Of a stretch of DNA of 64,000 nt, positions 13,706 through 55,459 are shown piece after piece; position 1 is the first letter of the stretch, and every line of letters starts with the position of its first letter. The DNA lies in NCBI GenBank assembly GCA_029582165.1, contig CM055893.1, positions 28,671,679 to 28,735,678 on the forward strand, in the 5' to 3' direction. The notes below the pieces were generated by a model, which was not told where the DNA came from, did not search any database, and saw only the letters and a list, made by a program, of their open reading frames with translations. Position numbers and translations under genes: made by a program. The DNA comes from Portulaca oleracea (taxonomy: Eukaryota; Streptophyta; Magnoliopsida; Caryophyllales; Portulacaceae).

Positions 13706-13723
13706 AAAACCCACGCGGGTTTT
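13706..13723. promoter_or_regulatory. palindrome inside the aORF2 intron (A)
   Basis: AAAACCCACGCGGGTTTT, one mismatch from a perfect palindrome, lies within the 138 bp intron at 13652-13789. It is the only single copy. All other sites in element A come in twos or threes. Confidence 0.6.
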
Positions 13724-30149: not shown

Positions 30150-30874
30150 GCTCTGTTTCCGCCGACTTATTTTCCGGGTCAAAACGACTGAGTATTGACC
30201 CCTTTCTTCCATGGTAAAAGTAGAGAGACTCATTATTTCCACATCAACTTTCATTATTAGGTCTTAGCTTTACTCTTACGGTTTTAGCTTTTAATTTTAG
30301 GTAGGATTAGATAAGGGTTTTCTCCCAATTGCAAATTCATTAAATGTAAATTTAGGGTTTATCCTTGTAATTGAAACTTTCATTATTGTTTTCATTGCCA
30401 TTAGAGCAACAATTAGTACCGAATTCAAGTAAGTCTCTTCTTCTTCCACTTTAATTTCAGCTTTCAATTTGTTGAATTACTTGTTGATTACCTTGTTTAT
30501 GCTTTTTATTAGTTTTATTAGCATTAATATGTCAGTTTTTGCTAGAATCATATTGAATTTTGAGTTGTTTGTTGGAATAGTGGTAGTTGTGAATATGTGT
30601 TGCTAGTTCCTTAAAGGTTAGGAGGTAATTACGGCCTCCAATAGGGGATTAGGTATGGATTATTAGGATTAGGGTGATTAATGAGGTAATTAAGTGTTCC
30701 TCTCTCTATTTCCACTCAATGTGAAGGATTTTGGTGCCCAGAGGTTATGAATCCTTCCCCAAACATTGAGTTGGAGATAAAGGTAGGAATTAGTTTCTAA
30801 TTCGCTGTAGCGAGGAATTTTTGAACCGATTAGATTGGATTGCGTTCGAATACTATCTAAGGTCGTCATATGTG

Positions 30875-36005: not shown

Positions 36006-37535
36006 TGTAGACACCGAATTTTGTACCGATTAATTTCACTCGAGAAAATTGTGCCAAAAATAAGTTTTCTTAAACCAAAGAAAATAAGAAGGCCACTGGG
36101 CCTTTCCCGTTTTCAAAACAAGCCGGCTGTGCCAAAAATCCCACAGAACAAAGGAAGGCTCGGCGACCTTCCTCATTTCTCTAGGCCTCCTGCAGCCTAA
36201 TAGTGCGCGCCCCAGCAGGAAAAATAGGAAGGCCCGACGACCTTCCTCAATTCTTTGGACCGGGAATGCAATTGCCTACGTGGCAATCCGTGTGAGGTAA
36301 AATCGAAGGCTCATAGGCCTTCCTCTTCAAATGTGATATCCGCGCCAATTTTTTTCCCTCATTTTCCATGCAATCCGATGATCACCGCCGGTTGACTTCT
36401 GACCGTTGACCTGAGCAAGGCTGCCGGGACTTGCGATTGGCATAGAGGGCATGATTCATGGGATCATGTCCCTCTCCTTCCATCCTCACCAGCTCACCCT
36501 CTAACTATAAATACCCCTCTCATCCACACTCATAGCATCAACTTTCATCATCAATAATCCCCATATTATCACCTTCTACTCTCTCTATAATCATCCTCCT
36601 ACACCCTTATCCTCTCCATTTCTCTATTCTTATTACATCATACTCGCAAAATTCCCTTTCATCATCCATATCATCATCACACCAACTATAAACCACATCT
36701 CCAACCAAATAACCTTCATTCCAAGCCATTATCAAGTCACAGTCAAGGGTTCATCATATGGAGTTCGATCTTCAATTCATCATATCGAAGTTCTAAGTGA
36801 GGTTCGTTCATCCTTAAAGTTTCAATAATGTAGTTTATTTTATGTAAACGTGTTATTTGTACAATCATTTTGTAAAATCATCATTCTTTTATTTCATTTG
36901 CATGTTTGAGTAATAACTTCATGAAATTTATTAAAAGTTCTCCCCGCTCAATTTCATTTCAAGTTTGATTTTAGTCGAGTCTGTTTTCTAACAGGCGGAT
37001 TCGAGAACAATTTTAATTCTCGAATTCGTAACCTTGCCCCTAAACATAGAATTCGGGTTCGTAGACTGGAGTCATTATAACTATTTTATGGTTTGTCGGT
37101 TTCCTTAAATCGACTGGGGACTCTTTCATTTTTATATAATCTCTTTTTATTATTTAACGTGAATGTTTATTACGTTGATAGAATTTATAAAATAATTTAC
37201 ATAAATCAATTATCCGATCTGGAGTCCGCACAAGAGAAAATAACGTAAGAATTATTCAAGGTCACATGGCCTTTGATTTTTCTAAGTATTTTCTATTGGG
37301 TTTTGGATCGGATTCGAATCGAGTCTTTTGTGAAATTATTTGTAAATTAATTTGATGTAATTTCAAACATGTGAATAATAAAAATTGATTATTGAATAAA
37401 TAAAAAGTTACCCCCCGAAAATGAATTTCATAAAATGAAAATATCCTTATTTAAGGATTAAGCAACCTTAGTCGGCTCCTGATCATTTAAGTAGCGCATC
37501 GCAGAAAAGGGGTCACCATTTTCCGGGGTCCTACA
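36006..37535 (+). repeat. element B 5' LTR, 1530 bp
   Basis: It runs from TGTAGACACCGAA to GGGGTCCTACA. B-type quasi-palindromes are centred near 36096, 36162, 36236 and 36312, upstream of TATAAATACCCC at 36506. A further similar word, AAGGTCACATGGCCTT, lies at about 37258-37274 in the U5 side. Confidence 0.93.
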
Positions 37536-37538
37536 GAT

Positions 37539-37556
37539 TGGCGACTCCACTAGGGA
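37539..37556 (+). promoter_or_regulatory. primer binding site of element B
   Basis: TGGCGACTCCACTAGGGA, three bases after the LTR end CTACA. It differs from the site of element A only at one position (A for G). Confidence 0.82.
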
Positions 37557-40265
37557 CTTAAACTTAAAAAGAGGGTAAATTTTAAAAAAATCAAGTTAAT
37601 TTGAAATTGTAAAAGGGAGAAAGTTTGTTTATCTCACGATTTTATTATTCTTTTAGGCATATTGCATACCGGGCTACTCCATGAGTCTTTTGACACGGGA
37701 GCACAAAGGCAACGGTTTAGGATAAACCTAGGATTTTTTCCCGAGAGCGGGCGGCCACTACTTGTGTGATGCAACCTACATCGCCAAGCATTTGGTCTCT
37801 CCTCTCACCCATGTTATACTCCAAGGCTTCCTTAAAGTCCGACGACCAACACCTTACACACTTTATCCATAAACTTTATATGGGTGAAGTGCACCGACGG
37901 GAGAACATGTGGTATGCCATCCTATCCTAACCTTAATAATTCATGAATATAGAGCCCCGGTTTAGGGTACCCCTCATGTTGTATGCTATATGGATATATG
38001 TTCCCCTTCCCCTTTCTTTTTTGTAAAGAGTCGACCCTAATTTAGAGGCTTCGTTCTAGTCCATATAAAATTTATTGGGTTGAGAATATGATTATTTATT
38101 AATTAGAATAATTAACCCAAATGCATTATGGCTAGCCCAGTGGACTACCCCATTTATGTACAAAGGTTGATTATTTTAATTAATAAATAAAAATTGACTC
38201 ACTTTTGATGATATTATATGACCCTTTACGATGTTCTCTTAATAAAGGTAAAAAAAAAAATAAATTGACTAAAGTCCAACAAAGTCAATGGATAGCGTCT
38301 TAGACTGCATAATAGTCACTAAGCTCGAGTAAATAAATCTATAGATTTAATTATTAAATCCATCACATTTATGTCCGGCCCATTGTTTAGGCCCAACCAT
38401 ATTGGATTTATCAAATAAGCTTATAAACTAGTTATATGTTCTGTCTCATTTCGAGCCGAATTGATACCGTTAATAAAGGGTTTTTGCTTGTTTTAATCCC
38501 CTATTTATGAATAAGTTATGATAATTTTGTGTTTTGTAGGTTAAATCAAAGGAAACGAGTAAAGGGAAAACAAAAGTGCATGAAAAATCCATCGTCCGCA
38601 ACAAAAACAGGCCCAACACAGACCGTGTCAGCCTAACACGGATCATATTTGCTAGCTGAACGATAAAGAACGAAGCGACCAGTGGCAAGCACCATGGACC
38701 CTGGTAGGTCAACACGGACCATGTTGACCAGCCATGGACCGTGTTGAGACTGGGCTTTTGAAGAAACGAAGCAAAGAAAATAGCGCGCATCACGGGCAGC
38801 CCGTAGCAGCCACCACAGACCGTGGTAGGCCAACACAGACCGTGTTGACCAGCCACGAACCGTGTTGGCTGGCGTCTTTTTTTTTTTCCGCGGCGGCTGA
38901 TTATGGTTTTGGGAGTTTATTATTTTCTTTTCCTTTCCTAAACTTTGTTATATATACATAATGCATTAGCCTTTAGCAATTATTAGATTTTAGTTTTAGT
39001 TTTAGTTTTAATTTAGTCTTAGTCTTTAGTTTCCTTAAGTTTTCTTTCAATTCCTCGATTGTAATCACATTCTCTTTCAAGATTAATTCAAGTTCTAGTT
39101 CTTTCCTGTTCTTTACTTTCTGTTTCGCTATTCTCAATTTGATTAGTGTTAGTTCCCACAAATTCCACCTTTTTTAGTGAAGAGGAGGATTAAGGTTCCT
39201 CGAATTCTCCCTTCAGTTGAGGATTCGAACAGTCTTAGTAATCTAAATCACGCCCTTTCTTGTTTGTTCGGGAGGAAGATCGGTGATTCAAGATTAAAAG
39301 AGGAGAATATCGATAGAAAGAAATATGCATTCAGTAATGTTTGCTATTTTCAATTCTGTAATTAGTTTAGTTTATACTTTCATAGTTTTTAATTGCTTCC
39401 TTGAATATGCTCTTGATTTCTAGTTTAGTTTCTTGTTGTTGTTCTAGTAGTTAGGTTTTGTTTTCAATTTCATGTTTTCTTTAGTTTCCATTGTTTTCAA
39501 TTCATAATTAGTTTAGTTTAAATTATTTACTACTTCCTACAATTTGAAACCTTACCAAACCAATTTCCTAAAAACCCGACACACCATCCTTATGGATTCG
39601 ACAACCCTACTCTCAGGAAACCCAATTTCTACAACCGAACATTATAACTCGCTTATTGTTGGCTTTATTCAGTCCTTAACAATATCTATTTTCCCTGAGT
39701 AAATAATAAAAGTAAAATAAAAAAAATAGAAGCGAAAATAAAAAAATATGTTGTCGGTCTTGTTGAACATTATATTAGTCAACGTAGCTAGAGCTGTCTA
39801 AGTTTGTTGGGCCAAGTTACGGATTCTCCTTAAAAAAGTTGGCCTGTGGATTGGGCCCATCCGAACTGGGAAACACTGAGTTGTGCCTTCCAACTTACAA
39901 ATAACCTGCTATATTTGACTTTATTCGGCCCTTTATGAAGTTCTGGTGTTAAGCTCATATAGAGTTAGGTCATGCACTCCCAAAAAGTGGGTGAGTCTCT
40001 TGTGTCAGCATACAAGTGTCGAGTCTGTTAGGGTCTCATATAGGTCTCTTAGGGCATGCATGCATCGAGTAGAAAGTGTGAGAGTAAAACACTGGGTTTC
40101 TAACTAAGAATTTCCATGCAGGGACCATTGGAGATCGACTAAAAGCCCGCACTAGAGATCCACGCACCAGTCGTTTGGTTCCAAATCCCCATTACGATCC
40201 ATCTACTACTCGAGACTGCATCATGTCTGGAGAATAATTCCAAGAGGTTCCTGTCCAAAGCACTG
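37557..40265 (+). other. 5' leader of element B, interrupted by a solo LTR
   Basis: Non-coding leader homologous to 22949-24225. The solo LTR at 38437-39641 splits it. No ORF1 is seen. Short AT-rich tracts, for example an A run near 38250. Confidence 0.7.
38437..39641 (+). repeat. family-E solo LTR with TSD TTATA
   Basis: It starts TGTTCTGTCTC and ends CAACCGAACA. TTATA flanks it on both sides (38432-38436 and 39642-39646), and the flanking leader joins perfectly when the segment is removed. TATA at about 38949. Palindromes of the CAACACGGACCGTGTTG type at 38613-38865 lie upstream, in triplets about 18-20 bp apart. The end has TTATGGATTCGACAACCC, like the CTGTGGATACGAC signature. Confidence 0.92.
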
Positions 40266-41729
40266 AGGCCAACATCACAAAGCATATGGAAGAGCTGTAC
40301 ACCAAGATGCAGGGACTGGTGTACGCTAGTACCTTAGACTAGGTGCAGTAAGATAGGAAAGAGGCTTAATGAGCAACAAGTCATGGATGGCGTGCTGCAA
40401 GCCATCACCAAGATCAACATCAAATTGGGCCTGAATACGGAGGAGGACGATGAAGAGGTTCATGGATATGAATCTGAGCCTGAGCTTATCAAAACATCAG
40501 CTGAATCTGTAGGTGAAGAATCATTCAAAGGAAAGGCTAAGTATGTCCTGGAGACACCCAAGCTTACAAGGGACTCTGTTGTCAAAGCCCTTGAACAAAA
40601 GCTAGAAAACATCACTAAGGTGATGAGCACTGTGCCAGCCTTTGTTGATAAATACATGGAGGTACCTTTGACTATTCAGCCTATCCTGAAAATTGCTGAC
40701 AAAATTGAGGTGCCTAACATCAAGTTTATGCCATCTGAGAACCCTACTCATCAAATTGAGGAATTCATGAGGCTAGCACCGCTAAACTGAATAGATGTTA
40801 GCTTATACTCTACAGTCTTGCCATCCACTTTAGATGGAGAAGACAAGGTGTGGTATCAGGCTTTACCACCTCAGATCAAAGCTGATTTGAATGAATTATT
40901 CAAGGCAATCGTCACTCATTATAGCCGCATCCAGAACAAGCAAGCTACGGTGGATGACTTAACCACCATGAAACAAAAGGATGATGAATCCTTCCTAGAA
41001 TACTTCGAGAGGTGGCACACCAAGCTATCCCATATTAATGAAACTATACCTCTCTGCCTGCAGTTGTCCACTTTCAAGCGAGGACTCAAGAGCAGCTTAT
41101 CCCGTCACTTGGGATACCATGTCATTAAGAACTTTGATTATCTGAAGGACATCTGTGTCCAAATAGAAGTCATGAATAATGACAAAACTATTGCCCCTAG
41201 TTGGAAAGGTTCTAGCTCCAACAGGAAGGCCACTAGTGCAACTAGCCACCCTCCTAAAATTGTTGAGACTAATTCCATCCAACGCAAAGTGCCTTTTGTG
41301 CCAAAGTACGAGACCTACACACCATTAGATGTTTCTTATACCCAGGCTCTCGACAGGTTGGTCAAGAAGGGTATCTTGATTTTGCCCTTACCAAAACAGG
41401 AGCCAGAGATCAAAGGTAGGAATTGGGATGCTAACCAATTCTGCTGGTACCATCGTTGTCGAGGGCATGATACTGAAATATGATGGACTCTTAAGAACAA
41501 AATCGAAGATATGATAAGGGCAGGGACGCTCCCTATGCCAAAAGTAGCAAAGAAACCCAACAATAAGGATAATCCTATGCATGAGCATGCACATGCTATC
41601 TTCAGTGAGGTCTCTCTCGTCGACCCCTACTCCTTAATTGTCGAAGTAGGTCAACCAATCCCAAGGGAATTTGGGATTCAGGAGGAATTATCCGTCCATG
41701 GCGTTTGGGATAGTAGTGATGATGATTAG
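40266..41729 (+). pseudogene. gag: gag of element B
   Basis: Homologous to gag of element A: YTKMQGLVYAS, LDGEDKVWYQALPPQ, LEYFERWHTKLSHINE, LKSSLSRHLGYHV, and the zinc-knuckle-like block CWYHRCRGHDTE. Stops near 40340-40375, at 40788-40790 (PLN stop) and at 41482 (TGA after HDTEI) break it. The last segment (41511-41729) ends at a TAG where A has lost its own frame by a TGA. Confidence 0.85.
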
Positions 41730-42684
41730 TACAAGTCTTCTGAAGGAGATTGGATCGAGGAAGACAATCAAGCGTCGAGCAGTGTAGTGTTCCTCACTCG
41801 GTCTGACTCGCTACAACAATAGGAACACCATTACCCCAGTGGTTGTCTCTAATCCTGCTCCAGTGGCTGGTAACGACTATCAGACTCCTCCGGAAAACCC
41901 TCTTCTCACCTAACTCAAGAGGACCAAAGCTGAGGTCACCATCTGGAAACTACTATGCACATCGCAGGCTCAAAGGCAAAAGATGCTAGATGCCCTTAAT
42001 GCACTAACTGTATCTCCTACAATGACCCCTGAATCCCTGGTCGCTCACGTGACCCCCAACCAGGGGATAATTGCCTTTGAAGATAAAGACTTACCTACAG
42101 GAGAAGCATCCCACAACAAAGCCCTGTACCTTACAGTGCAATGCTCGAATAAGACTATTCCCTTGGTGCTAGTAGATAATGGATCAGCTGTGAATGTGTG
42201 CCCTTGGAGAACGGCACAGAAGTTAGGGGTTCTGCAGCAACACTTGATCCAAAATGGGCTACAACTTCGACCATATGACAACTGTCCCCGAAAATCAGTT
42301 GAGTCCATAATTCTGCCTATCATCATGGACCAAATCACTCGGAATGTTGAATTTGTAGTACTTGACGTCCCCGCTTCCTTCAATCTACTTTTAGGGAGGC
42401 CTTGGCTTCATGAGTGCAATGCCATAGAATCTACTCTACACCAGAAAGTGAAGATGTACATGTTAGTCCAAGGTCAAGTGATCACGATCTTGGGAGAACC
42501 TATCAATGCTTTATTCACCCCTAAGCAACTGACCTTGGAGGTGAAACATAGTTCTATTAATGAAGAGTTGCATAACTTTGAAGTAGTGGCGGTTTTGAGC
42601 AAGGATGAAGCTCAATTTTACTTTGATCCCTACTCAAACCCCAAGGTCCATTCAATTCTTAAAAGGCAAGGCTACTTTCCTTGA
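41730..42684 (+). pseudogene. pol: aspartic protease region of element B
   Basis: An open segment 41983-42684 with VLVDNGSAVNVCPWRTAQKL, the intact DNGSA active-site version, and FVVLDVPASFNLLLGRPW. The upstream linker (41730-41980) has stops. A TGA at 42682-42684 separates it from the G-patch-like segment. The catalytic site looks better preserved than that of element A. Confidence 0.82.
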
Positions 42685-43296
42685 ATGCCATTAGGAAAGA
42701 ACTCGAAGAATAGGATTCCACTTGTGATAAAGACCTTCAAGCAAAAGGGAAGATTTGGCTTTGGGTATAAACCGACCGCCAAGGAGGTCAATGTTGCAAA
42801 GATGGCGATCGCTGAGCAAAAGAGGATGGACAATCCTCCTACGCTATACAAAATGAAACCATACCCTCTTACTCAGAATGGGCAATTCGCTAAGGAGGGG
42901 GACGACTTCCCTTACTATGGTTTTCCGGAGCCAATCTACCTTAAAGGCCAAGGAATACAGGTGACTACGATAGAAATTTTCAAGGACTATTCCACTAATA
43001 TGGCTACAGTCTTTGTCCCAGCTCGAGACAAGCAGCCACCATTAGAGTGGACTCATCTCGTTGGGAGTGGCATATATGGCATGCTGTTCGGACAAGAAAC
43101 TACGCCAAAGAAGACTGAGCTGATGTTGTTATCGTTGCACTGTCCAACCCAGGGTTCGACCCAAGTCTTATTATTACCGAAGATGGAAAAGCTAATGCGG
43201 TCTCCTGGGTCGATGCTGAAGAGAATAGTTTTATCCTGTCTGTAGGAGTGTATGTCGCTAAGGTCATTGAGTAGGGTCCTAAAAGTCTAGAGTCGG
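42685..43296 (+). pseudogene. pol: G-patch-like linker of element B
   Basis: The frame 42685-43245 has MPLGKNSKNRIPLV and GRFGFGYKPTAKEV, the counterpart of the Gly-rich block in A (GLGYKP). A frameshift near 43120 replaces the acidic linker seen in A. Stops lie just before the RT frame. Confidence 0.65.
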
Positions 43297-44850
43297 GTGG
43301 GGCTAACATCGAGTCAACTGGCGATCGATGTACTTCTTTCTTTATTCACTAAGATGAACATTTCTGCTTACTCTAATTCTTCTTCACTTCCCCCAAACTG
43401 TTGTGCCAACAATAATCTTGAATTAAATGAACCCTTAAATGAACCTGATGATAAACTGGAGCACAAAGTGGCGGTGTTAGAAGATACCATCAGCATAAAT
43501 AAGGGTACGGAGGATCAGCCTCGAGAGTTGAAGTTGGGTAGCTCTCTAACCAAAGAGGAGCAACTAGCATTCACGGAGCATCTCAGAGAGTTTGTAGATG
43601 TGTTCGCTTGGTCTTACGAGGACATGCCTGGGATTGACAGGGACATCGCAGAACATACTATGCCATTACTTCCAAATGCAAATCCACTTCGGCAGAAGGT
43701 CAGGAGGATTAAGCCAGAATGGGCCAAGAAGATTGAAGAGGGAGTGATCAAGCAGCTCAACGCCAAGTTCATTAAAGTAGTCCATTACCCTGAATGGATT
43801 GCCATCATAGTCCCGGTACCTAAGAAAGACGGAAAGGTACGTATGTGTGCAGAGTTCAAAGACCTTAACAAAGCTAGTCCCAACATTAGTTTCCGATTAC
43901 TTGTCATTGATGTGTTGGAGGATAATACTTGCGGACATGAGCTTTTGTCTTTCATGGATGGTTATGCTGGATACAATCAAATTAAGATGGTCGAGGAAGA
44001 CATGGAGAAAACTTCATTCACCACACCTTGGGGAATGTATTGCTATGTGGTCATGCCCTTTGGCCTCAAGAATGCTGGTGCAACATACCAAAGGACTGCT
44101 AATACTTTGCTCCATGACACGATGCATAAGGAAGTAGAAGTTTATGTGGATGATATGGTTGTCAAATCCAAAACTAGGGATGAACATGTTCCTAATCTCC
44201 GCAAATTCTTCTTTCGGCTTCGCAAATACAAGATGCGGCTTAACCCAGCAAAGTGTACCTTTGGTGTCACCTCTGGAAAGCTATTAGGCTATGTAGTTAG
44301 TCAAAGGAGCATTGAAGTAAATCCCTCAAAGATAAAGGCTATTCAAGATCTGCAACCGCCCAAAACAGAAAAGGAGGTAAGGGGATTTTTAGGGCCAGTT
44401 CAATACATTAGTAGGTTTATCTCTAAACTTACCATGACTTGTGAACATTTATTCAAGAAATTGAAGAAGGGGAGTAAGATAGAATGGGATGACCAATGCC
44501 AAGCTGCTTTTGACAAGATCAAGGAATACTTGCAACATCCACCGGTCCATATGTCGCCAGTACTAGATAAGCCTTTCCTCCTTTATCTTACAATAACAAG
44601 CTCGGCAATGGTGGCTATGTTAGCTCAAAAGATAAAAGGTCAAGAGAGCGTCATCTATTACATGAGCAAGAAGTTCCTGGAATACGAGAGTTGGTACGCT
44701 GATATAGAGAAAATTGCTCTTGGATTGGTGTGGGCCACCAAGAAGCTAAGACATTATATGCTCCCGCACACTGTATATGTCATAGTTGAAAGTAACTCCA
44801 TCAAATTCATCATGGAGCAACCTACCGTCAACAATCGCATCGCTCGCTAG
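43297..44850 (+). CDS. pol: RT and first RNase H of element B, 517 codons open
   Basis: The longest intact pol segment: DMPGIDRDIAEHTMPLLP, VRMCAEFKDLNKASPN, FMDGYAGYNQIKM (catalytic Asp), MPFGLKNAGATYQR, VYVDDMVVKSKT (YVDD intact), LLGYVVSQRSIEVNPSKI, then an RNase H-like connection domain (YYMSKKFLEYESWYADIEK). The Asp in MCVDFRDL is Glu here (MCAEFKDL). It ends artificially at TAG 44848-44850, which is the first base triplet of the inserted hAT MITE. Confidence 0.88.
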   Translation: MGLTSSQLAIDVLLSLFTKMNISAYSNSSSLPPNCCANNNLELNEPLNEPDDKLEHKVAVLEDTISINKGTEDQPRELKLGSSLTKEEQLAFTEHLREFVDVFAWSYEDMPGIDRDIAEHTMPLLPNANPLRQKVRRIKPEWAKKIEEGVIKQLNAKFIKVVHYPEWIAIIVPVPKKDGKVRMCAEFKDLNKASPNISFRLLVIDVLEDNTCGHELLSFMDGYAGYNQIKMVEEDMEKTSFTTPWGMYCYVVMPFGLKNAGATYQRTANTLLHDTMHKEVEVYVDDMVVKSKTRDEHVPNLRKFFFRLRKYKMRLNPAKCTFGVTSGKLLGYVVSQRSIEVNPSKIKAIQDLQPPKTEKEVRGFLGPVQYISRFISKLTMTCEHLFKKLKKGSKIEWDDQCQAAFDKIKEYLQHPPVHMSPVLDKPFLLYLTITSSAMVAMLAQKIKGQESVIYYMSKKFLEYESWYADIEKIALGLVWATKKLRHYMLPHTVYVIVESNSIKFIMEQPTVNNRIAR

Positions 44851-45015
44851 GGGTGTTCAAAAAACCCGGAACCGCTTCACCGAACCGTAAATCAGTAAAA
44901 AAAAAATAGAAACGGGCAACACCAAACCACTTCATTTTTTCGGTGCACCGAATCGGATAAACCGGATGTTAAACGGGGCGATTCCGGTTTGTAATTTTAA
45001 AACCGACGGGAAACA

Positions 45016-45074
<59 letters not shown>

Positions 45075-45317
45075 TTCTGGAAGCAAAGAAAAACATCATT
45101 GTCCATGGCGGCAGAAACTAGAAAGGTTGAAGCAGAACAAATAACTCAGTGTATCAAAAAAAAGGTTGAACTTAGAGTCATTGTATGTGCAAAAAGAAAA
45201 AGAAGTACCGGGCTATACTTGATGTTGTTTGCGCACAAAGAATCTAGGGTGTGAGGCAATTTCCTCACCGTTGTAATTTACATTGGTCTGATAATGAATT
45301 TCCATGCATTAACTTTG

Positions 45318-45364
<47 letters not shown>

Positions 45365-45651
45365 TTTGATTTAAAAAAAAGTTACACACCCATAGTGGGA
45401 ACTAGTAAGGAAAAAAAAATTTACACAGACACAGTCGGAATCGAACTTGAATTTTTTTTTGTTGGGTTGATTGAATGATGATCTTTTAATTTTGATGGAA
45501 ATAAAGGCGGTTCCAGTTAATTGGTGACACCACACCTTTAAATCTGGTGCACCGATTTAAAAAAACCGGTTGTTCCGGTTAACGATTTTGGAAAACCGTT
45601 TCGGCCGGTGCACCACTTCGTGAAACCGTCACCACACCGTGAACACCCATA
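44848..45651. mobile_element. hAT-type MITE, 804 bp
   Basis: The ends TAGGGGTGTTCA and (reverse complement) TATGGGTGTTCA are the classic hAT MITE terminal repeat. The flanks TCGCTCGC (44840-44847) and TCGCTCTC (45652-45659) are an 8 bp duplication with one mismatch. Subterminal CCGGTT/AACCGG words recur. Two TA microsatellites lie inside (45017-45071 and 45318-45361). No transposase. Confidence 0.88.
45017..45071. repeat. TA microsatellite
   Basis: About 27 TA dinucleotides with one TGTA interruption, inside the hAT MITE. A second tract is at 45318-45361. Confidence 0.95.
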
Positions 45652-45659
45652 TCGCTCTC

Positions 45660-47550
45660 TAGGTGGTCATGCTCTCGGAATTCAATCTCCAATACCTACC
45701 CCAAAAGTCCATCTAAGGCCGAGTCGTTTATGACTTTTTAGTTGCATCTCCATCACAGGAACCTCCAAGCACTCACTTGGAGTTCCCAGATGAAGATATC
45801 TTTCTTACTGATGAAGTTACATGTGAGATGTATTTTGACGGGGCCTCTAATTAGATGGGTTGTGGAGTAGGAGTCCTATTGATCTCTCTCAAAGGGGGCT
45901 CACATCCTTGTATTTGTGAAGTTGGATTTTGATGCCACCAACAATGTCGCAGAATACGAGGCATGTATAAAGGGATTACAAGCTGCTCTGACTATAGGTG
46001 TTCGCCATATAAAGGCCTTTGGAGATTCTAGCCTCATCATCAACCAGGCTAAGAATACATGGAAGGTTCGAAATGAATTCCTTCTGGCATATCAAGAGAA
46101 GCTCCTTGGACTTGCTGACCAATTCGAGAAGACCAGTTTCCATTACCTTTCAAGGGATCACAACGAGCTGGCCGATGCCTTGGCTAAATTATCTTTGATG
46201 GTGTCAATCCCAGCGGGCATGCTCCAACTACCCATGATAGTAGAGCGATAATCTAAACCAGCATACATATGCACCATGGACATTCAAGAAATCAATACCA
46301 AGGCATAGTTTTAAAATATATACAACTTTCTGCGGAAAGGGGAGTATCCAGCCGAGCTGGATGCCCGAGGACAACGAGCGATCAAGTCTTTAGCAGCACA
46401 ATACTGCTTAATCCAAGATCGTTTGTATAAGAAGTCGGCTACAAGCATCAATTTGTTGTGTATAGACGCCAAAGATGCAGAAGAAGTCATGACCACTATA
46501 CATGAAGGAGAGTGTGGCTCTCACATGAATGGGCATATGCTGGCTAAGAAAGTACAGCGAGCAGGGCACTATTGGACGACCATGGAAGCAGATTGTTTGA
46601 ATTTCGTCTGAAAGTGTCACAAATGTCAAGAGTATGCTAATCTGCAACATCAACCTCCTTCGTATCTGACCACCTTGACATCACCATGACCATTTTCTGT
46701 ATAGGGTATCAATATCATTGGCAAGATACACCCTACAGGAACGGGAGGTTACGAGTACATCTTGGTCGCTATTAATTACTTCACTAAGTGGGTAGAGGCA
46801 ACTTCTTATGCCAGACTCACATCCAAGCAAGTGGCTAAGTTTTTCCTTCGGAACATCATATGCATGTATAGGGTACCTCATGAGATCATCAGCGACAATG
46901 GAAGCCACTTCCGAAAGGAAGTAGAGACGCTGCTCAGCTCGTATCATATTCAGCATCACCGATCTTTGCCTTATAGACCTCAAGCTATTGGAGAAGTGAA
47001 GGCAGCAAACAAAACAGTGGCTGGGATCATTAAAAAGATGACCATAACCTATAAGGATTGGCCAGATAAGCTATCGTTTGCTCAATAGGGATACTGCACC
47101 TCCATACGAACATCTACAGGGGCAACCCCCATATTCATTAGTTTGTGGGATGGAAGCAGTCCTTCTAGTTGAGTTAGCAATCCCTTCGTTAAGAATAGTT
47201 GGAGAAAGTCAGTTGCCAGAAGCATAATGGGCGCGAGCAAGGTTTGAAGAGTTAATGTTGATAGATGAAAGGGATTAAGGGCATTAAATAATGTGCAAGT
47301 GTACCAAAGCAGGATTACCCATACATTCAACAAAAGAGTTAAGGATCGTGCGCTTCAAGAAGGTGATTTGGTGCTTAAGGAGATGAGGGCACCCATACAA
47401 GACCCTAGAGGGAAGCTTGTACCAAATTAGAAGGGTCCTTATATGATTAAGGAGATTCTACCTGGAGAAGCAACCCGTCTTGCTACCATGGATAGAGAAG
47501 ATGTTACCCAACCCACAAATTTAGATCAGCTAAAGCGGTATTATGCTTAA
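45660..47550 (+). pseudogene. pol: second RNase H and integrase of element B
   Basis: The second RNase H (MKLDFDATNNVAEYEACIKG, FGDSSLIINQ, SRDHNELADALAKL) lies at 45916-46251 after a stop-rich start. The integrase zinc finger keeps CHKCQ (46614 onwards). The core reads GINIIGK where A has GIDITGK, and QAIGEVKAANK where A has QANGAVEAANK, so two of three catalytic acids are lost. The C-terminal domain ends LDQLKRYYA at 47550. Many stops. Confidence 0.85.
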
Positions 47551-47780
47551 TATATCCAAGCAACTAAAAAACCAACTTTCAGACACTTGGGTTATATTAA
47601 ATATAAATGCTCATAAAGACATAACTTACAATTTGAACAATGATTAGAAGAATGTCATTTTTACTTCATTAAGGGACAATACAAGTACATCGCTTGTTAT
47701 TGAGAAAATGCGAAAATTAAATACAAGATTATTTAATGGCGAAAGCAGCTTCATTTCTTTCGTTCATTTCTTTCCATCTC
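47551..47780. other. convergent gap between pol and aORF2 (B)
   Basis: About 230 bp, AT-rich, between the pol stop (plus) and the aORF2 stop (minus). It matches the gap in element A in size and position. No gene. Confidence 0.65.
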
Positions 47781-49159
47781 CTATTCTTCATTCACTTCCA
47801 TTGCATCGCCAGTAGTCTCGGGGTTTGTCTCTTCATCTCTTTGACTGTCTGGTCCTGTGTCTGTGTTCTTCGGGCAATAAATTCTCTTAGGCTTTTTTTT
47901 ACCTTCAACCCTAGGACCAAGCCGATCTTTTGCAGAGGTTTTGGGCCCTAACCGGTCCTTTACTATGGTTCGAGGATCAAGTCTTTCCTTTACCGATGTT
48001 GCTGCTTGTTCTCTTCTCACCTCCCCGACCCAACGAGACTCCACAACCATTATCAACCATCCCTAATATCCCGCATCAGTATAAAGAAACACGTGCGCCT
48101 TCGAAGGAGCACGAATGGTGGGCCTTTTCTCCACGTATTTCAACCACGACGCCATAATAGATGGACGAAGCTTCTGACACTTGGGGGCTTCATATAGCAG
48201 CTCAGGATGATTTGTTTCCGTCCCATTTGCCTTCGCACTCGATCGGGGAAGTAGTAGGTCATAAGTGTTAGATCAGTGATGCACACATATGCATTCCTCG
48301 AATCACAAGTGACATGTTCGGGGGATATACCATCACTCAATCCACCACATATTATCCCGAGGCTCTTTCAGGAATGTTATCCATGTTGTAACTTACCGAA
48401 GGTCGGTGTATTTTCTATTCCTTTGACAGTAATTCGCCAAAGCAGAAGATGTCCTGCGTTCCTCCACGAGCCCCAAATGTTCCGTCAGCCATACATGTCA
48501 AACAAAGAAAAAGTAATTAGCAAGGGATATAATTGCACACCAATTTATCCCAAACTAAAAGAAATGGCTTAGATTAATTACCTATTGTAACAGGGGGCTT
48601 CCTCGGTACTCATGTTATGGATTGGGGTCATCTAAGCCCAACATTGTCTCTGCCAACATCAAAGGAACTAGATTGTAACCCCGAGCCATGTCCTTAATGG
48701 TAGAAACAGAATTCACCCAAAAGGCATAGCGCTAGAGCTTGAACTCTTATCACGGGGTCATACTCTAAGGTTTCAAGAGCTTGAAAGTAATCAACAATAG
48801 TTTGATAGTGTACCTTATTGCCAATTAAGGCACTTCCGATGACACGGGAAGGGAGGCATAACAGCTCCTTGTAGTCCTTGTTGGAATTAGTGGACAACAG
48901 CGGTGAAGTTGGGGGAGCATAATGATTTGTTCCCAAGATAGGACCATTCCTCCGCCAATGGGCATAGTTTCTTAATTCCGAAGCAAAACATATGCATTTT
49001 GGAATCCCAAAATGTTTCAGCAGCACGAATTAAGGAAGTCGAAATTCATACGCATCTGCCGCAAACTCACAACTGCGTTAGCTTGTATCTCCCAAGCTCT
49101 CACTTTTCTTCCTTGGATTGAGTGCTCATCCAAGTTGCAAGTTTCTTCTCGAACGCTAT
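47781..49159 (-). pseudogene. aORF2 of element B (antisense)
   Basis: The C-terminal frame 48056-47781 has VVESRWVGEVRR and four (E/D)RLGP repeats (KERLDPR, KDRLGPK, KDRLGPR), matching A. 48340-48140 matches the TYYFPDRVRRQMGRKQ block. 49026-48694 matches exon 1 (LPSRVIGSALIG, IRVQALALCLLGEFCFY). The start codon equivalent (A: ATG of MAFEKKLATW) is ATA at 49159-49157, so the start is lost. Frameshifts and stops separate the pieces. The same gene order and exon content as A shows that it is an old component of the family. Confidence 0.6.
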
Positions 49160-49243
49160 CTTTGCTTTTCAGACTTTTTTATAACTCTCTTGGATATCTC
49201 ACAAGCTAGAAGATGATGAATGAATTCCTAATGTTTGGATGGG

Positions 49244-49465
49244 TATTTATGCTACTCAAAGGAGTTCAAAAATTGATTAAAATCACCACAAACGGTCACA
49301 CTACCGTTGATGATCATATCCCTTCATTCAAGCCTTTGCAACGGCTAAAAATAAAAAAGAAAAAAAGCAAGGCTCGGCGGCCTTGCTCGTCAGCAAGCAG
49401 GCGCGCGCCACGCCGAGCCCAGCCCAGTTCTCCTTAGCCCACAGCAAGGCCGCCTAGCCTTCCTT
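49244..49465 (-). promoter_or_regulatory. aORF2 promoter of element B
   Basis: Minus-strand CATAAATACCCATCC at 49237-49251 in the TATA position. Upstream, quasi-palindromes GCAAGGCTCGGCGGCCTTGC (49367-49386) and GCAAGGCCGCCTAGCCTTCC (about 49444-49463) are 77 bp apart. They take the same place as the AAAACCC palindromes of element A. Confidence 0.6.
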
Positions 49466-49699
49466 TTTGTTGGGCTTTGGGAATTTGCTCCTATTTCGAG
49501 TTCTTATTCGATCCAATCAAATCATGCTCTGAAATTTGTGCCCAATGAACTCTAACACTTAGGTTTTGTTTTTTTTTTTTTATCTTTTTTCCGTTTGGGG
49601 AAGCGGGATGTATCCCATTGCATAAATAAAGCAGAAATGCATTAAATAGATAAGTCACGATACAAAGCGTTAATAGAGTCTAGCATTAATAAAAATTAA

Positions 49700-52600
49700 A
49701 AAAAAAGTCGTGCATAAATTAAAAAAAAGTCTTGCATAAAAAAAAATTAGTCTAGCATTGCATACAAGAGGAGCTTTCAGTCGAACCACATCAAGGAGCT
49801 CGAATTGCCGCTATCCTTAGCCATGTCACCACCAACATTCGAAGTTCCGGCATTGGAGGTACCCGTAGTGCCAAAATAAGTATCCCACGAGTAATAATCA
49901 GGGTCGGGCATGGGATCGAAGCTCGATAATATCGGGTATAAAGGAACAGAAGGTGTCGGAGGCGACAAAGACACAAGAAGAGGAGAAGGATTGTTCCGTG
50001 TCTGCATCGGGACATGAGATGGACCTCTTGAAGGTATTGGCACAAGAGATGGCTCCCTGGTGGTGACGACATTGGAGATGGCTCCCTCGGAGGTGACGGC
50101 TCAGACAAAGGCACCTCTGGTTAGATTAGAGACGTCCTTGAAGGTGACGACATGGCAGATTCTTGCGAAGCAGCAGACCAAGAATGCTCCGGGACGTACC
50201 AACCAAAAGATGGATTCGGCCAAGCAAATTCCATTGCTTAATCGAGGGCTGGCCAACCAGAAGAAGAAGACCTTCCTAACCAAGAATGTTGGTGTGCTGA
50301 CTACTCCTGTAGGCCTATGGGCCATGAAGGACCCATATCAGGAGCAGGGATGGGCCATCCCGCGAAGTAAGTATCAAAGCCAAATGAAGGAGCAGCAGAA
50401 GGTGCAGGATATGAAGCAGTGTCATCTGCTAGGGCCTGAGTACCAGCATACCCTATGGACGCACCTGAGTCACGATCCCTCACCACTATCTCGCGACCTC
50501 AACGACCAGAGCGCGAGGAGGAATAACATTTGATCGTCGCGGTGGCTCCCTAGGTATAGACTCTACATTAGCCTCCACATCCACGCCTCTGGCTACATTA
50601 CCTTGATATCTACCTGAGTTAGTGAACGCTTGATGGATATGTTTCTTCATGGTGCTCTACTCCTTGACTATATGCCGAAAACGTGCCTACCTCGGCTGAA
50701 AGGAACAAAACCAAGGTTATTCACGAGAAAAGGGGTCATCGATAGGCAGTGCAGAAAGGAAATTACCGGTTTCCGATCGAACTCCTGTAGTGTAGAGCAC
50801 GAGCTGCTCTTTTCCACCTCCAAGAAGCCTCCTATCTTTTCTTCTCCAGCAGGGATTGCCTCTTCGACGGCCTTGCCATAAGGTCCAAGCTGGCTAACAC
50901 CCAGAAAATAAACATGATGTACAAAGAAGGAGAGCAATATAGGTAAGGGATACATACCACCCTAAAAGCTACACGACTGTGGTATCGATCGAACTCTTCG
51001 GTGAAAATTGTTCTGGGACGTTTACGATGAATTGCTCAAACTCATTACCTTGGATGTCATCTCTCCAAGGATCTGCATCTAAGCACCAAGGTTCAAACAT
51101 CTTCTCTGGAGGATCCATAGCAAAGAGAGGCGGATGGCGCCCCAAGATTTGCATTGATGCGCGCTTCTCAAGATACCAAATGAAGCCTGAAGGAGACTCG
51201 ATCAACACACAAAGACATGTGTCATGCTCCGCCAACTCCAAGGGAGCTGAGAGTCGTGCCAAATCAGAGCCCTTCCATGGGCGCTAGTTCACTTGGGCCT
51301 GCAATGGGGGAGTGGTATGACAAGTTACCAAAAACAAAAGCAGGAAGAAGAAGGATGAGAAGTCATGCCGATGTAAGGTTATCTAGGATGTTCAGAACGT
51401 CATCCAGACGCTCTACAGTAAACTTCTTGCCTTATATGTTCTTAACAGGCCAGCGTTCAGCAGCAGAAACTGACCTACCCTTTTTAGAGCGAATATTCAG
51501 AGGGCGAATATATTCGTAAGCCCACGCCAGCATAAAAGAAAAGAAGAGGGTCATCCGCATAAACAAAGGAAGTGAAGAAACACAAAAGAGAAGCGTCTCG
51601 AGTGCATACCTCGAGCACCTTCCAGAAAGCAAGGCCATATTGGAAGTGCAGGCGAGCGGGATGCACAAGGTTGAGCTCATCATTCTGAGAGATCCTTACC
51701 CCACGACGAAGACCGTGGAGAAACGCCGCATAAGCTGCTTTACCCCAGTTCAGTCGAAGGATATCGTCAAAGTTCAGCAAATTCCCCATCTTAGACAACA
51801 ATATGTTGTCGCCGTGGTTGGCAAAAATGGTGGAGCAAATAAAGTATGCCATGAACAAGAAGCGGCGCTGGTCCAACGGCATAGAGGCAAAGTTGTCGCT
51901 GAATAAGGCCTCCAAATGCAGGTACGAAAAGCTGGCTAAACCTTGCCTAGGCTGGAGCCGCGCCAGGACAGAGTCCAACATAGCCATAACTCCCGGAGGA
52001 GGATCTTTGAGAAATTCAACATTTTGACCACCCCAACAAAGGCCTGTGATCATAACGAAGTCGGTTGGGGTCACCGTCATCTCGCCTACTGGCAGATGAA
52101 AGGAATCGGTGTTATCCCAAAACCTTTAAGCCATATCTCTCCCTAAGACGTGATGGGTTTTGTCGTTCCAAGCCACTAGACATGACCGGAAAGTGACAAA
52201 GTCAGTAGCTGCTAGAGTACCGCGAGTAAAATCTCCAAAGGACTCAACAATCTTTAGGAGCTTTTTTAGATTCCCAAAGGTCTTTAGGGAATCCTCCTAA
52301 AACATCAAATGAAAAGAGTTAAAACTACGAAGCATGAACTCGGTTAGCACTCTACTAACGGGTCAAAATATGGGAGATTACAAAAGAAAACAACATGACA
52401 TTCCACTTTGGGTCGATTCAAGAGGAAGGACCACAGCCACAATCACAAAAGGAAGGCTGCCGGGCTTTCCCATTTTCCTTAGCCCACCAGCCAAGCCCAC
52501 GCAAAATTTGGCCCGGTACAACAAAAAGGAAGGCCGCTGGGCCTTCCTAATTTTCATCGGCCCATCACAGCCTCACAAAGCTGCCTGCCCAATGCAGTTA

Positions 52601-53000
52601 AAGGGAAGGCCGCCGAGCCTTCCTAAAAACGAACCGTGAACTTTCATTTTGGGCCAGTTATCATGTGAACATAATTTTGGGCATTTTTCAACTTTGGGCA
52701 AAATAAAGAGGCGCATGCAAGTATCCAAAGGGCTATAAAGTATCAAGCATGCAACATGGAATTAGATAAAATTGACAAGACAGGATGAAATTAAATATTT
52801 CTGCTTGCTCATTTTACGCTAAAATAAATGTTGGGTTCGACGATTACCTTAATGTGTGATCGATGGTACCAAACTTGGTTCCAGTTGCGCAGAATCAAGT
52901 CAGCAGCGGCAGTCTCGACCCCGGGAATAAAGCTTCGCCTAGAAATGCCTTCGTGGGCCCATCCAGCTGCATTGGGAAAAGGGGGATTCCTCTGGCTTCA
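49700..53000 (-). pseudogene. aORF1 of element B (antisense plant-mobile-domain-like)
   Basis: The main exon 52080-51610 has MTVTPTDFVMITGLCWGG, QRRFLFMAYFICSTIF and LNWGKAAYAAFLHGLRRGVR, closely parallel to A. 51262-50969 matches the exon after intron 3 (ESPSGFIWYLEKRASMQILG). The exon boundary VLE/GTATGC is kept, but the acceptor AG has become TG. The fourth intron (50766-50696) keeps GT and AG. The tail 50486-49777 matches A (VRDRDSGASIGY; YYSWDTYFGT). The first exon, near 53000-52846, contains HEGISRRSFIPG and ends at a GTAATC donor. Stops and frameshifts are present. Confidence 0.62.
52451..52622. promoter_or_regulatory. three B-type palindromes in aORF1 intron 1
   Basis: GGAAGGCTGCCGGGCTTTCC (52451-52470), GGAAGGCCGCTGGGCCTTCC (52529-52548) and a third centred near 52613, about 78 and 75 bp apart. 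They correspond to 9420-9514 in element A. Confidence 0.62.
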
Positions 53001-53128
53001 TGGCTGCATCCTTCTTCGAATAAAAGACAAGACCTATAACTTTCAAGAAGAGAATTTTTGAAAGCAATTTGACAGCTTCAAGAGGAAGGAATAAAGAGAT
53101 GTGAATGAATGAATGCAATGAAGTTATG

Positions 53129-53412
53129 TATTTATAGAAAAAGGCGAACGAAAATGGAGCATCCGTCTCAAGGACCCGCCTCGAGATGCTAAACGCACCT
53201 CATTGTTTGGAAATCTCCAACCTCATCTTCTTGCCCCCCAAAGCAATAGCATGGCATGCATGTGGGCCCTATTGAAGATTCCCTCAACAAGAAAAACAAA
53301 AAAATAAATAAAAAGGAAGGCTCGGCGGCCTCCCGTGTCCAAAACAGCCCAAGCCTGCCATTTGAAAGCGCGGGTCAGGCCAATTAAAATAGGAAGGCTA
53401 AGCGGCCTTCCT
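53129..53412 (-). promoter_or_regulatory. aORF1 promoter of element B
   Basis: Minus-strand CTATAAATACATAAC with TATA at 53129-53136, followed by a CT-rich leader. Upstream are GGAAGGCTCGGCGGCCTCCC (53315-53334) and GGAAGGCTAAGCGGCCTTCC (53392-53411), 77 bp apart. Same layout as 8630-8935 in A. Confidence 0.62.
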
Positions 53413-53504
53413 TGCTGCAGATGGGCCATTTTCATTCTAAGTTAAGGTTTTGTCCAATGTTCTCTTGAAACTGACACCGGTTTCTCATTACTATTTTGCA
53501 GGAC

Positions 53505-53870
53505 ATCTTTCGGTTGCCACATAAAAGAGCACCGACATAGTCCATCTTCCGGTTGCCACATAAAAAAGCACTGACATCGTCCACCTTCCGGTTGCCACAT
53601 AAAAGAGCACTGACATCGTCCACCTTCCAGTTGCCATGTTAAAGAGCACCGACATCGTCCACCTTTCGGTTGCAACATAGAAGAGCACTGACATCGTCCA
53701 CCTTCCGGGTGCCACATAAAAGAGCACTGACATCGTCCATCATCCGGTCGCCACATAAAAGAGCACCGACAACATCGATCATCCGGTCGGTAAATAAAAG
53801 AGCACAGACAGCATCCATCATCCGGTCGCCGTATAAAAGGGCATTGACGACATCCATCTCCAAGACAGAC
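53505..53870. repeat. 39 bp tandem repeat array, nine units
   Basis: The word ATAAAAGAGC (or a close variant) starts at 53521, 53560, 53599, 53638, 53677, 53716, 53755, 53794 and 53833, exactly 39 bp apart each time. Each unit also holds GACATCGTCCA and CCGGTTGCCAC. Because 39 is a multiple of three, all frames stay open and give 13-residue repeats, which I do not regard as genes. It lies where A has its 50/60 bp array. Confidence 0.95.
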
Positions 53871-53925
53871 GTCAAGCAGTCAGCATCTTAGACTACTTTG
53901 ACCTTCGTCCTATTCGGACTCGATT

Positions 53926-53940
53926 AAAGTGGGGGCTCTC
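53926..53940 (+). promoter_or_regulatory. polypurine tract of element B
   Basis: AAAGTGGGGGCTCTC directly before the 3' LTR, identical to element A. Confidence 0.85.
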
Positions 53941-55459
53941 TGTAGACACTGAATTTTGTACCGATAAATTTCACTCAGGAAAATCGGGCCAGAAATAAGT
54001 GGGCTTAAACCAAAGAAAATAAGAAGGCCACTTGGTCTTGCCCATTTTCAAAACAAGCCCGACTGCTAAAAAGCCCACAAGAAAAGGAAGGCTCGGCGGC
54101 CTTCCTCATTTCTCTGGGCCTCCAGCAGCCCATTAGCGCGCGCCCCAGCCAGGAAAAATGGGAAGGCCTGAAGGCCATCCCCATTTCCTTGGACCGGGAA
54201 TGCGATTGCCAGCGTGGCAATCCGTGTAAGGTAAAATAGAAAGCTTAGCGGCCTTCCTCTTCAAATGTGATATCCGCGCCATTTTTTTCCTTTCTTTTCC
54301 ATGCAATCCCATGATGACTTCCGGTTGACTTCTGACCGTTGACCTGAGCACTTGCTATCGGCATGGAGGGATGATCCATTGGATCATGTCCCTCTCCTTC
54401 CATCCTCACCAGCTCACCCTCTTACTATAAATACCCCCTCTCATCCACACTCATATCATCAACTTTCATAATCAACAATCCCCATATTATTACCTTCTAC
54501 TCTCTCCATAGTCCTCATCCTACACCCTTATCTTCTCCATTTCTCTATTCTTATTACATCATACTCACAAAATTCCCTTTCATCATCCATATCATCATCA
54601 CACCAACCATAAACCACATCTCCAACTAAATAATCTTCATTCCAAGCCATTATCAAGTCACGGTCAAGGGTTCATCATAAAGAGTTCGATCTTCCATTCA
54701 TCATATCGAAGTTCTAAGTGAGGTTCGTTCATCCTTAAAGTTTCAATAATGTAGTTTATTTTATGTAAATGTGTTATTTGTACAATCATTTTGTAAAATC
54801 ATCATTCTTTTATTTCATTTGCATGTTTGAATAATAACTTCATGAAATTTATTAAAAGTTCTCCTCGCTCAATTTCATTTCAAGTTTGATTTTAGTAGAG
54901 TCTGTTTTCTAACAGGCGGATTCGAGAATTATTTTAATTCTCGAATTCGTAACCTTGCCCCCGAACTTAGAATTCGGGTTCGTAGACCGGAGTCATTTTC
55001 CCTATTTTGTGGTTTACCGGTTTCCTTTAATCGGTTGCCGACTCTTTTTTTTTTATATATAATCTCTTTTTATTATTTAACGTGAATGATTATTACGTCG
55101 AAAGAATTTATAAAACAATTTACATAATTCGATATTCCGATCTGTAGACCGCACAAGAGAAAATACCGTAGGAATTATTAAAGGTCACATGGCCTTTGAA
55201 TTTTCTAAGTATTTTCTATTAGGTTTTGGCCCGAATTCGAATTGTACTTTTTATGTGAAATTATTTGTAAATTAATTTGATATAATTTCAAACATATGAA
55301 TAATAAAAATTGATTATTGAATAAATAAAAGTTACCCCCAAAAATGAATTTCATAAAATAAAAATATCCTTATTTATGGATTAAGCAACCTTAGTCGGCT
55401 CCCGATCATTTAAGTAGCGCATCACGGAAAAAGGGGTCACCTTTTCCTGGGGTCCTACA
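53941..55459 (+). repeat. element B 3' LTR, 1519 bp
   Basis: It runs from TGTAGACACTGAA to GGGGTCCTACA, followed by TATAT. Quasi-palindromes are centred near 54030, 54096, 54170 and 54248, at the same spacing as in the 5' LTR. TATAAATACCCC at 54426. Confidence 0.93.

Follow-up and report, generated by a model that had tools for sequence, protein, structure and literature searches.

Palindrome arrays at the promoters of Ogre-like retrotransposons in Portulaca oleracea follow the encoded plant mobile domain protein and may be read by a dimeric factor

We analyzed a 64,000-nucleotide stretch of the Portulaca oleracea genome (assembly GCA_029582165.1, contig CM055893.1, positions 28,671,679 to 28,735,678, forward strand; hereafter the window), which holds two long terminal repeat (LTR) retrotransposons, elements A and B. 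Both carry arrays of short palindromes in the U3 part of the LTR, upstream of two antisense open reading frames (aORF1 and aORF2) and in the aORF1 intron, each element with a word of its own. In relatives from the same genome the word diverges along the tree of the plant mobile domain (PMD) protein that aORF1 encodes, and its two arms change together. We tentatively lean toward reading the palindromes as dyad-symmetric cis-regulatory sites of an Ogre-like Ty3/gypsy family, recognized by a co-diverging dimeric factor, the likeliest candidate being the element's own PMD protein.

Results

Different palindromes occupy the same slots of two elements

A preliminary description of the window, made from its letters, had listed 15 GGAAGGC palindromes in the LTRs, antisense promoters and aORF1 intron of element B; all were recovered, and a sixteenth was added at 36415.

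Palindromes of element B
36087–36106, no strand called: U3 slot 1, 5' LTR
36153–36172, plus: U3 slot 2, 5' LTR
36227–36246, plus: U3 slot 3, 5' LTR
36304–36323, plus: U3 slot 4, 5' LTR
36415–36434, plus: U3 slot 5, 5' LTR, three mismatches, absent from the earlier list
49367–49386, plus: aORF2 promoter, G-C changed to C-G in both arms (GCAAGG..CCTTGC)
49444–49463, minus: aORF2 promoter
52451–52470, minus: aORF1 intron
52528–52547, minus: aORF1 intron
52604–52623, minus: aORF1 intron, the reference word inverted exactly
53315–53334, plus: aORF1 promoter
53392–53411, plus: aORF1 promoter
54022–54041, no strand called: U3 slot 1, 3' LTR, three mismatches
54086–54105, plus: U3 slot 2, 3' LTR, the reference word
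54161–54180, plus: U3 slot 3, 3' LTR
54238–54257, plus: U3 slot 4, 3' LTR

Palindromes of element A
7629–7799, minus: 3' LTR, at 7629, 7708 and 7784 (AAACCCGCGCGGGTTT)
8631–8725, minus: aORF1 promoter, at 8631 and 8710
9421–9514, minus: aORF1 intron, at 9421 and 9499
12711–12803, minus: aORF2 promoter, at 12711 (AAGCCC..GGGCTT, a change in both arms) and 12788
13707–13722, minus: a single site between the aORF2 coding blocks
24506–24599, minus: 3' part of the LTR (U5 side), at 24506 and 24584; none called in B
25608–25781, minus: 5' LTR, at 25608, 25688 and 25766

With up to two mismatches, GGAAGGCN6GCCTTCC occurs 14 times in B and 0 times in A and in the remaining 24,899 bp of the window (mean 0.03 and maximum 1 over 60 shufflings of the B sequence), and a third mismatch raises the count in B to 16 by adding 54022 and 36415 (shuffle mean 0.67, maximum 3). 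The A motif, AAACCCGCGCGGGTTT, is found at up to two mismatches 15 times in A and 0 times in B and the remainder (shuffle mean 0), while at up to three mismatches neither word had a match in the other element or in those 24,899 bp. As had been claimed, these different palindromes stand in the same places: they occupy the same unalignable gaps between alignable A/B blocks, and thus orthologous slots. Both elements have sites in U3, in the aORF1 promoter, in the aORF1 intron and in the aORF2 promoter, to which A adds its two U5-side LTR sites and the one between the aORF2 coding blocks. At each promoter the nearest palindrome lies ~70–200 bp upstream of a TATAAATAC-like box, and no palindrome site was called in the leader or coding sequence of B. 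The centre of the B word is asymmetric, (T)CGGC(G), and the aORF1 intron sites are inverted. The added U3 slot 5 of B ends 71 bp upstream of the TATA box and is 111 bp from the neighboring site; no counterpart was found in the B 3' LTR, and a site 109–110 bp from its neighbor is present in 7 of 20 ten-kb loci taken around B-type sites. The 11 palindrome arrays have a GC content of 0.46–0.54 and an observed/expected CpG ratio of 0.58–1.29 (gag-pol, 0.52), and 11 of the 16 departures from the A word are CpG transitions.

The spacing proved as regular as first described, mostly 74–80 bp with a shorter step once per LTR. Leaving slot 36415 aside, the B spacings are 66/64 bp once per LTR and 74–77 bp otherwise, and 12 of the 13 independent spacings of A and B pooled fall within 74–80 bp (12 of 14 if slot 36415 is counted), a range into which random placement in the same intervals never brought more than six in 20,000 trials. 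The spacers themselves are mostly unrelated (z >3 in 11 of 156 comparisons), and three of the four best alignments shown lie on GCCCA words; GCCCA/TGGGC is enriched near the sites 13-fold in A and 8.5-fold in B, with LTR copies counted twice. Plain tandem duplication of a 77-bp unit was rejected, as the spacers are largely unrelated. Between slots, identity within the word is 0.88 in A and 0.79 in B with sites turned to one orientation (0.71 unturned), and drops to 0.23–0.30 more than 10 bp outside it, which disfavors gene conversion of entire slots. The B sites also have an A-rich left flank, with an identity of 0.57–0.64 over 5 bp.

The two elements are far diverged: synonymous divergence (dS) is estimated at 1.2–2.4 for nine blocks and at 0.63 for a short block of aORF1, and is saturated in five more; the ratio of nonsynonymous to synonymous divergence (dN/dS) is 0.04–0.15 in the gag-pol blocks with an estimate and 0.13–0.37 in aORF blocks. 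At such a dS unconstrained DNA would by now be unrecognizable, so that the retention of slots, pitch and symmetry argues for constraint on the architecture while the word turned over. A and B are also too far apart for the pair, by itself, to demonstrate that all sites changed simultaneously.

The words of relatives form a graded series along the PMD tree

A search with the PMD exon of B listed 151 matches (150 candidates of 4246 were scored at first look), from which 34 relatives were picked by hand, and thus non-randomly, to cover 54–83% identity, each comprising the PMD exon and ~1.4–1.7 kb upstream. The A and B words had been called unrelated, a claim that the relatives overturn: they carry intermediates, and the two words are the ends of a graded series, in every case with two complementary 8-bp arms around a 4-bp loop. 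The B word is GGAAGGCC-N4-GGCCTTCC; the relatives add a T word, TGTAGGCC-N4-GGCCTACA, a K word, TAAAGGCC-N4-GGCCTTTA, and an A word of the form (C,T,G)AAAACCC-N4-GGGTTTT(G,A,C). GC occupies loop positions 3–4, in gene orientation, at 57 of the 87 sites in introns and at 15 of the 38 in promoters, NNGC being the commonest loop.

The pitch in the relatives is ~77 bp. A test of geometry only (arm 8, loop 4) found similar palindrome pairs 74–82 bp apart in 18 of the 34 loci (30 pairs), compared with 0, 1, 1 and 0 loci in four other spacing bins and none in 20 shuffled sets. A chance origin of the arrays was rejected by the shuffle, random-placement and geometry-only tests.

The check named beforehand, whether motif type follows the sequence type of aORF1, came out in favor of such a link. 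On the PMD tree of all 36 elements the motif labels, assigned by hand before the tree result but with identity to B already known, need 7 changes (the minimum possible being 5) versus a shuffled mean of 19.1, and 0 of 200 shuffles came as low. The 14 B labels share one 100/98 branch with two elements lacking calls, and the A labels sit on one branch (98/93), adjoined by L041 (K) and then L054 (T) under a midpoint root. PMD distance and arm distance are likewise correlated (Mantel r 0.67 and 0.65) in the 31 of 36 elements that have at least two intron sites at three mismatches or fewer. The labels of L034, L035, L036, L049 and L054 are based on weak or few sites, L032 and L047 have no sites, and the PMDs of L011, L013, L019, L021 and L025 were left off the tree; four-mismatch matches recurring near the exon start were treated as coding and excluded. 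The word-calling templates are palindromic, which biases the calls to symmetric sites, also in the Mantel and mispair counts, a bias that the outer-pair-masked test and the hybrid search (below) limit.

Most elements use one word. Elements A, B and L013, a K-type element retrieved for an adjacent B-type site, each carry a single word in U3, aORF1 promoter and aORF1 intron, and in L013 it extends throughout U3, U5, promoter and intron; we take the two B-type sites of L013, past its LTR end, to belong to a neighboring element. The concert of sites within an element is strong but imperfect, with a few elements mixed (discussed below), so that the notion that all sites of an element changed together is no more than approximately right.

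Among further relatives, L053 has GCAAGGCC-like sites, and L049 has ACCGTG palindromes at 75-bp intervals (548, 623 and 698), similar to the GAGACCGTGGCCACGGTCTC type. At 4769–6863 of L006, a B-type and an A-type LTR array adjoin, each upstream of its own LTR end.

The two arms of the palindromes change together

Genome-wide, GGAAGGCN5GGCCTTCC gave 132 forward and 128 reverse matches and reversed controls 0; full B arms stand on both sides in at least 34 places among the matches listed, and the T word TGTAGGCCN4GGCCTACA occurs in 37 places. When the outer pair was masked in the search, the outermost pair of A-type sites was complementary in 31 of 47 versus 17.3 expected, with 0 of 5000 shuffles as high (p <0.0002); some of the 47 come from close relatives (L043/L045, L040/A) or have three mismatches. 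The complementary pairs are C-G 15 times, T-A 12 times and G-C 4 times, varying within single elements, and the next three outward pairs are complementary in 25, 18 and 19 of 47 versus 14.9, 12.4 and 14.6 expected (p 0.0014, 0.045 and 0.093). Covariation of the flanks within element A alone, seen at 1 of 16 offsets (p 0.005–0.009), is weaker than in this multi-element test, and none was found in the flanks of B sites. Mispairs are strand-symmetric (G.T versus A.C: 46 versus 47 in introns, 17 versus 18 in promoters) and favor no RNA strand, though most of them must be decay of dead copies.

Two relatives show paired changes of their own. In L048 (B-type, 922–1096), two of three intron sites read GGAAGGT..ACCTTCC, with the same inner pair altered in both arms at both, and in L058 (T-type, 815–834) a site reads TGTAAGCC..GCTTACA, a paired change in both arms.

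Structure and lineage of the two elements

36006–55459, plus: element B, Ogre-like Ty3/gypsy, with TATAT, a 5-bp target site duplication, on either side
36006–37535, plus: 5' LTR of B, TGTAGACACC...GGGGTCCTACA, TATAT immediately before, 90.0% identical to the 3' LTR
36505–36514, plus: TATA box CTATAAATAC of the B 5' LTR
48060–49178, minus: remains of aORF2 of B, broken frames
49243–49250, minus: degenerate TATA box of aORF2 of B (ATAAATAC)
51487–52125, minus: aORF1 exon of B with the plant mobile domain (PF10536, E 2.1e-12)
52297–52847, minus: predicted aORF1 intron of B, placed by eye from its GT-AG ends
53128–53137, minus: TATA box of aORF1 of B
53941–55459, plus: 3' LTR of B, TATAT immediately after
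54425–54434, plus: TATA box of the B 3' LTR
25921 to ~6790, minus: element A, 3' LTR truncated, LTRs 95.0% identical across the shared part

Both elements are Ogre-like Ty3/gypsy elements, with gag, reverse transcriptase (RT) and antisense genes lying between pol and the 3' LTR. RVT_1 and then RT_RNaseH were found at 43291–44850 of B, and RVT_3, H2C2 and rve, in this order, at 16904–17923 of A, where an extra RNase H before the integrase is thus observed. In both elements a PMD is encoded in antisense, that of aORF1 of A matching at E 1.5e-8 with 34.6 bits (gathering score 34.9). Two pieces of B aORF2 had no match in Pfam, the A copy of aORF2 gave a weak PMD match (E 3.3e-4), and at an E threshold of 0.01 the ten aORF pieces searched from the two elements yielded PMD only, with no TRP28 domain (PF04195). 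One RT query each against viral and genome contig collections found no relatives, and a PMD exon compared with a protein database gave no useful lead.

Several other repeats were noted. Tandem repeats of 39 bp lie near the B 3' LTR (53465–53893) and partly homologous ones in A (~8004–8500), despite differing adjacent palindromes; an origin of the palindromes from the repeat at 53465–53893 was rejected, there being no likeness by eye. An insert within the B pol gene (44859–45636) coincides with a gap between A/B alignment blocks, and another in the B leader (~38434–39647) has CAACACGGACCGTGTTG-type palindromic words at 38620–38870, just before a TATATATA stretch. The sequence adjoining the B 5' LTR (35230–35640) holds repeated GTCGCGGCTGCGAC-type words. 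Elsewhere in the window, two ~84% alike copies of another LTR-like sequence (14384–15773 and 56960–58337) have palindromes of their own, GAGACCGTGGCCACGGTCTC, often 21 bp apart (15253–15436 and 57840–58000), and a further repeat holds a cluster of TCACGACCGTGA-type palindromes at 29897–30155, unlike those of A and B.

Discussion

Given slots mostly at promoters and in an intron, a dyad-symmetric unit and a word that most sites of an element share and that tracks the PMD gene, the simplest account would be a dimeric DNA-binding factor that reads both arms and is common to all promoters. The putative regulatory module of A and B consists of two to five sites, mostly at a pitch of 74–80 bp and with GCCCA words in between, before a TATAAATAC-like box; it precedes the LTR promoter on the sense strand as well as the two antisense ones, with extra sites in the aORF1 intron. 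Were the specificity of the reader to alter, both arms, and the sites, would have to change. The likeliest candidate for this reader is the PMD protein that the element itself encodes in antisense, which could give rise to a VANC-type loop, either autoregulatory or directed against silencing, with a lock and key specific to the family. The PMD protein is a natural candidate because it is encoded antisense by the same element, because it is kin to MAIN and MAIL1, which have a part in silencing and are tied to a promoter motif (PMC7156037, PMC5418596), and because, in one study, Gypsy elements alone encode the PMD-A1 and A2 clades (PMC5418596); the same study speculates on an anti-silencing role for PMDs captured by Mutator-like elements. 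The fullest form of the idea, in which a PMD dimer reads a palindromic address before every promoter, the address shifts by symmetric double changes and each family activates or unsilences only itself, is a possibility that we hold loosely.

Several observations weigh against a self-encoded dimeric reader. Because a single element carries both motif and PMD, the two should correlate even if they do not interact. The T word is not a single clade, taking 4 changes on the PMD tree; the aORF1 promoter word differs from the intron word in L037, L051 and L057; and in L056 the three intron sites combine an arm of T type on the left with one of B type on the right. The exact B/T hybrid GGAAGGCCN4GGCCTACA had 0 matches genome-wide, in line with linked arms, but that result does not prove rarity, and near-hybrids such as L056 exist. 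The outermost pair varies yet stays complementary, which points to pairing or palindrome-making mutation, not base reading, at that position. Sireviruses, which are elements of another kind, have palindromes too (PMC2829016), palindromes are present in further LTR-like sequences of the window whose lineage is unassigned, and the predicted structure of the PMD exon reaches a pLDDT score of only 40. Intermediates and mixed motifs, which the preliminary description had proposed to seek, were thus found as a graded series and a few mixed elements (L037, L051, L056 and L057), and not as the exact hybrid. Of its two explanations, a coevolving trans-acting reader agrees with a word that tracks PMD, though co-inheritance by itself would give the same correlation, and concerted gene conversion of whole slots is disfavored by the flank identity of 0.23–0.30.

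That host transcription factors read the palindromes, each element family having drifted to a different one, is somewhat unlikely. The GCCCA words, which we take to be site II/TCP-like, would then be the shared part of a host-driven promoter, and they are enriched in A and in B, where the slots are mostly promoter or intron positions. Sirevirus palindromes compared with known plant cis elements gave mainly stress-related recognition sites, with no common binding site (PMC2829016). Host factors would, however, have to account for several word changes in one genome, mostly in both arms and most slots and ordered on the PMD tree, which calls for many factors and coordinated switches.

We regard it as unlikely that the words work by folding into hairpins or cruciforms, whether of DNA or of RNA, on the model of Sirevirus LTRs, with pairing keeping the symmetry and turnover providing escape from silencing guided by small interfering RNAs (siRNAs). 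Bousios reportedly treated Sirevirus palindromes and an siRNA-driven arms race in 2016. Such a race is discussed for these palindromes in PMC5311732, where they are hotspots of small RNA mapping; the compensatory letters outside the shared core of A-type sites (31, 25, 18 and 19 of 47) fit pairing, and the 11 of 16 CpG transitions among departures from the A word are expected after methylation. Free hairpins, on the other hand, would need no common arm sequence at all sites, the orientation of sites varies between B slots, flank covariation is absent in B, and the mispairs, even if mostly decay of dead copies, are strand-symmetric. Since pairing or template switching explains the varying outer pairs better than the reading of bases does, hairpins or cruciforms, or an arms race driven by siRNAs, may nevertheless play a part beside a dimeric reader.

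It is improbable that there is no reader at all and that the words are homogenized by turnover of tandem repeats, short gene conversion and template switching at quasi-palindromes, with the PMD correlation due to co-inheritance. Quasi-palindrome template switching would create and maintain symmetric changes, and the mixed and hybrid elements (L037, L051, L056 and L057) agree with the lack of a reader. Conversion tracts would nonetheless have to end within ~10 bp of the word, identity beyond being at chance except in the A-rich left flank of B; the pitch is retained despite largely unrelated spacers; and no site was called in the B leader or coding sequence. Recognition between RNAs, with self-complementary words mediating dimerization or co-packaging of same-family genomic RNA, is very improbable: palindromes are self-recognizing and all slots would lie within the sense genomic RNA, but no sites were called in the B 5' leader, the slots track promoters and the mispairs are strand-symmetric.

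The retrotransposon-encoded PMD proteins have relatives, MAIN and MAIL1, that act in Arabidopsis silencing. A DNA address whose two halves both change, in most slots, in step with the PMD tree offers a direct and cheap test of PMD protein function, and the graded series within one genome provides ordered intermediates for studying the joint change of binding specificity and sites. In the case of MAIN and MAIL1, PMD proteins are tied to a short promoter motif, 'DOWN', and to silencing or expression; these are host genes, and recognition of the motif is attributed to an as yet unidentified factor (Nicolau et al. 2020, PMC7156037).

Like Ogre (Tat) elements, A and B have a PMD gene outside gag-pol and a Tat-type pol, whose extra RNase H between RH and integrase is observed in A (Neumann et al. 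2019, PMC6317226; Ikeda et al. 2017, PMC5418596), and PMD is reported in 57% of Ogre elements (PMC6317226); the string 'palindrom' has 0 occurrences in the Ogre paper PMC6317226. Retand has antisense genes between pol and the 3' LTR, proposed to encode DNA-binding regulators, and tandem repeats near the 3' LTR (Vicient 2025, PMC11963269); it carries antisense TRP28, in whose stead A and B have PMD, and in the accessible text of that paper 'palindrom' occurs only within a reference. In A and B the PMD gene is antisense and occupies the interval from pol to the 3' LTR.

VANDALs belong to the Mutator-like DNA transposons, whereas A and B are LTR retrotransposons. In the VANC system of VANDALs, family-specific short motifs in noncoding parts (introns, intergenic and terminal) co-diverge with an element-encoded protein, and its binding and the loss of methylation were demonstrated experimentally (Hosaka et al. 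2017, PMC5735166; Sasaki et al. 2023, PMC10398659), while here the protein is a PMD, a candidate reader, and the sites are palindromes. Motif type tracks the phylogeny of the encoded protein in our elements as well, by both the PMD tree and the Mantel test. If a PMD reader is real, sequence-specific self-recognition would have evolved in LTR retrotransposons as in VANDAL transposons.

Arrays of this kind are already known from Sirevirus LTRs, where element-specific palindromes (RM) in 8–32 copies cluster ahead of the TATA box, further copies stand in front of ENV, and the words differ between many elements (Bousios et al. 2010, PMC2829016). A and B share this placement of many palindromes, ahead of the LTR TATA box and in front of a further gene. 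Sireviruses are Ty1/copia elements, whereas A and B have a gypsy pol; 12 of 13 Sirevirus motifs have a CGG-CCG core (PMC2829016), which A and B lack, the A core being, by eye, CCCGCGCGGG and the B arms GGC..GCC. The arrays of A and B further differ in using antisense promoters and an intron as slots, in their ~77-bp pitch and in a word type that was compared with the encoded protein. As far as the open literature searched shows, what is new is that such arrays occur in PMD-bearing Ogre-like elements, that antisense promoters and an intron serve as slots, that the pitch is 77 bp and that the words form a graded, symmetric series in step with the encoded protein; if a co-diverging reader does exist, the Sirevirus palindromes may share the same general strategy.

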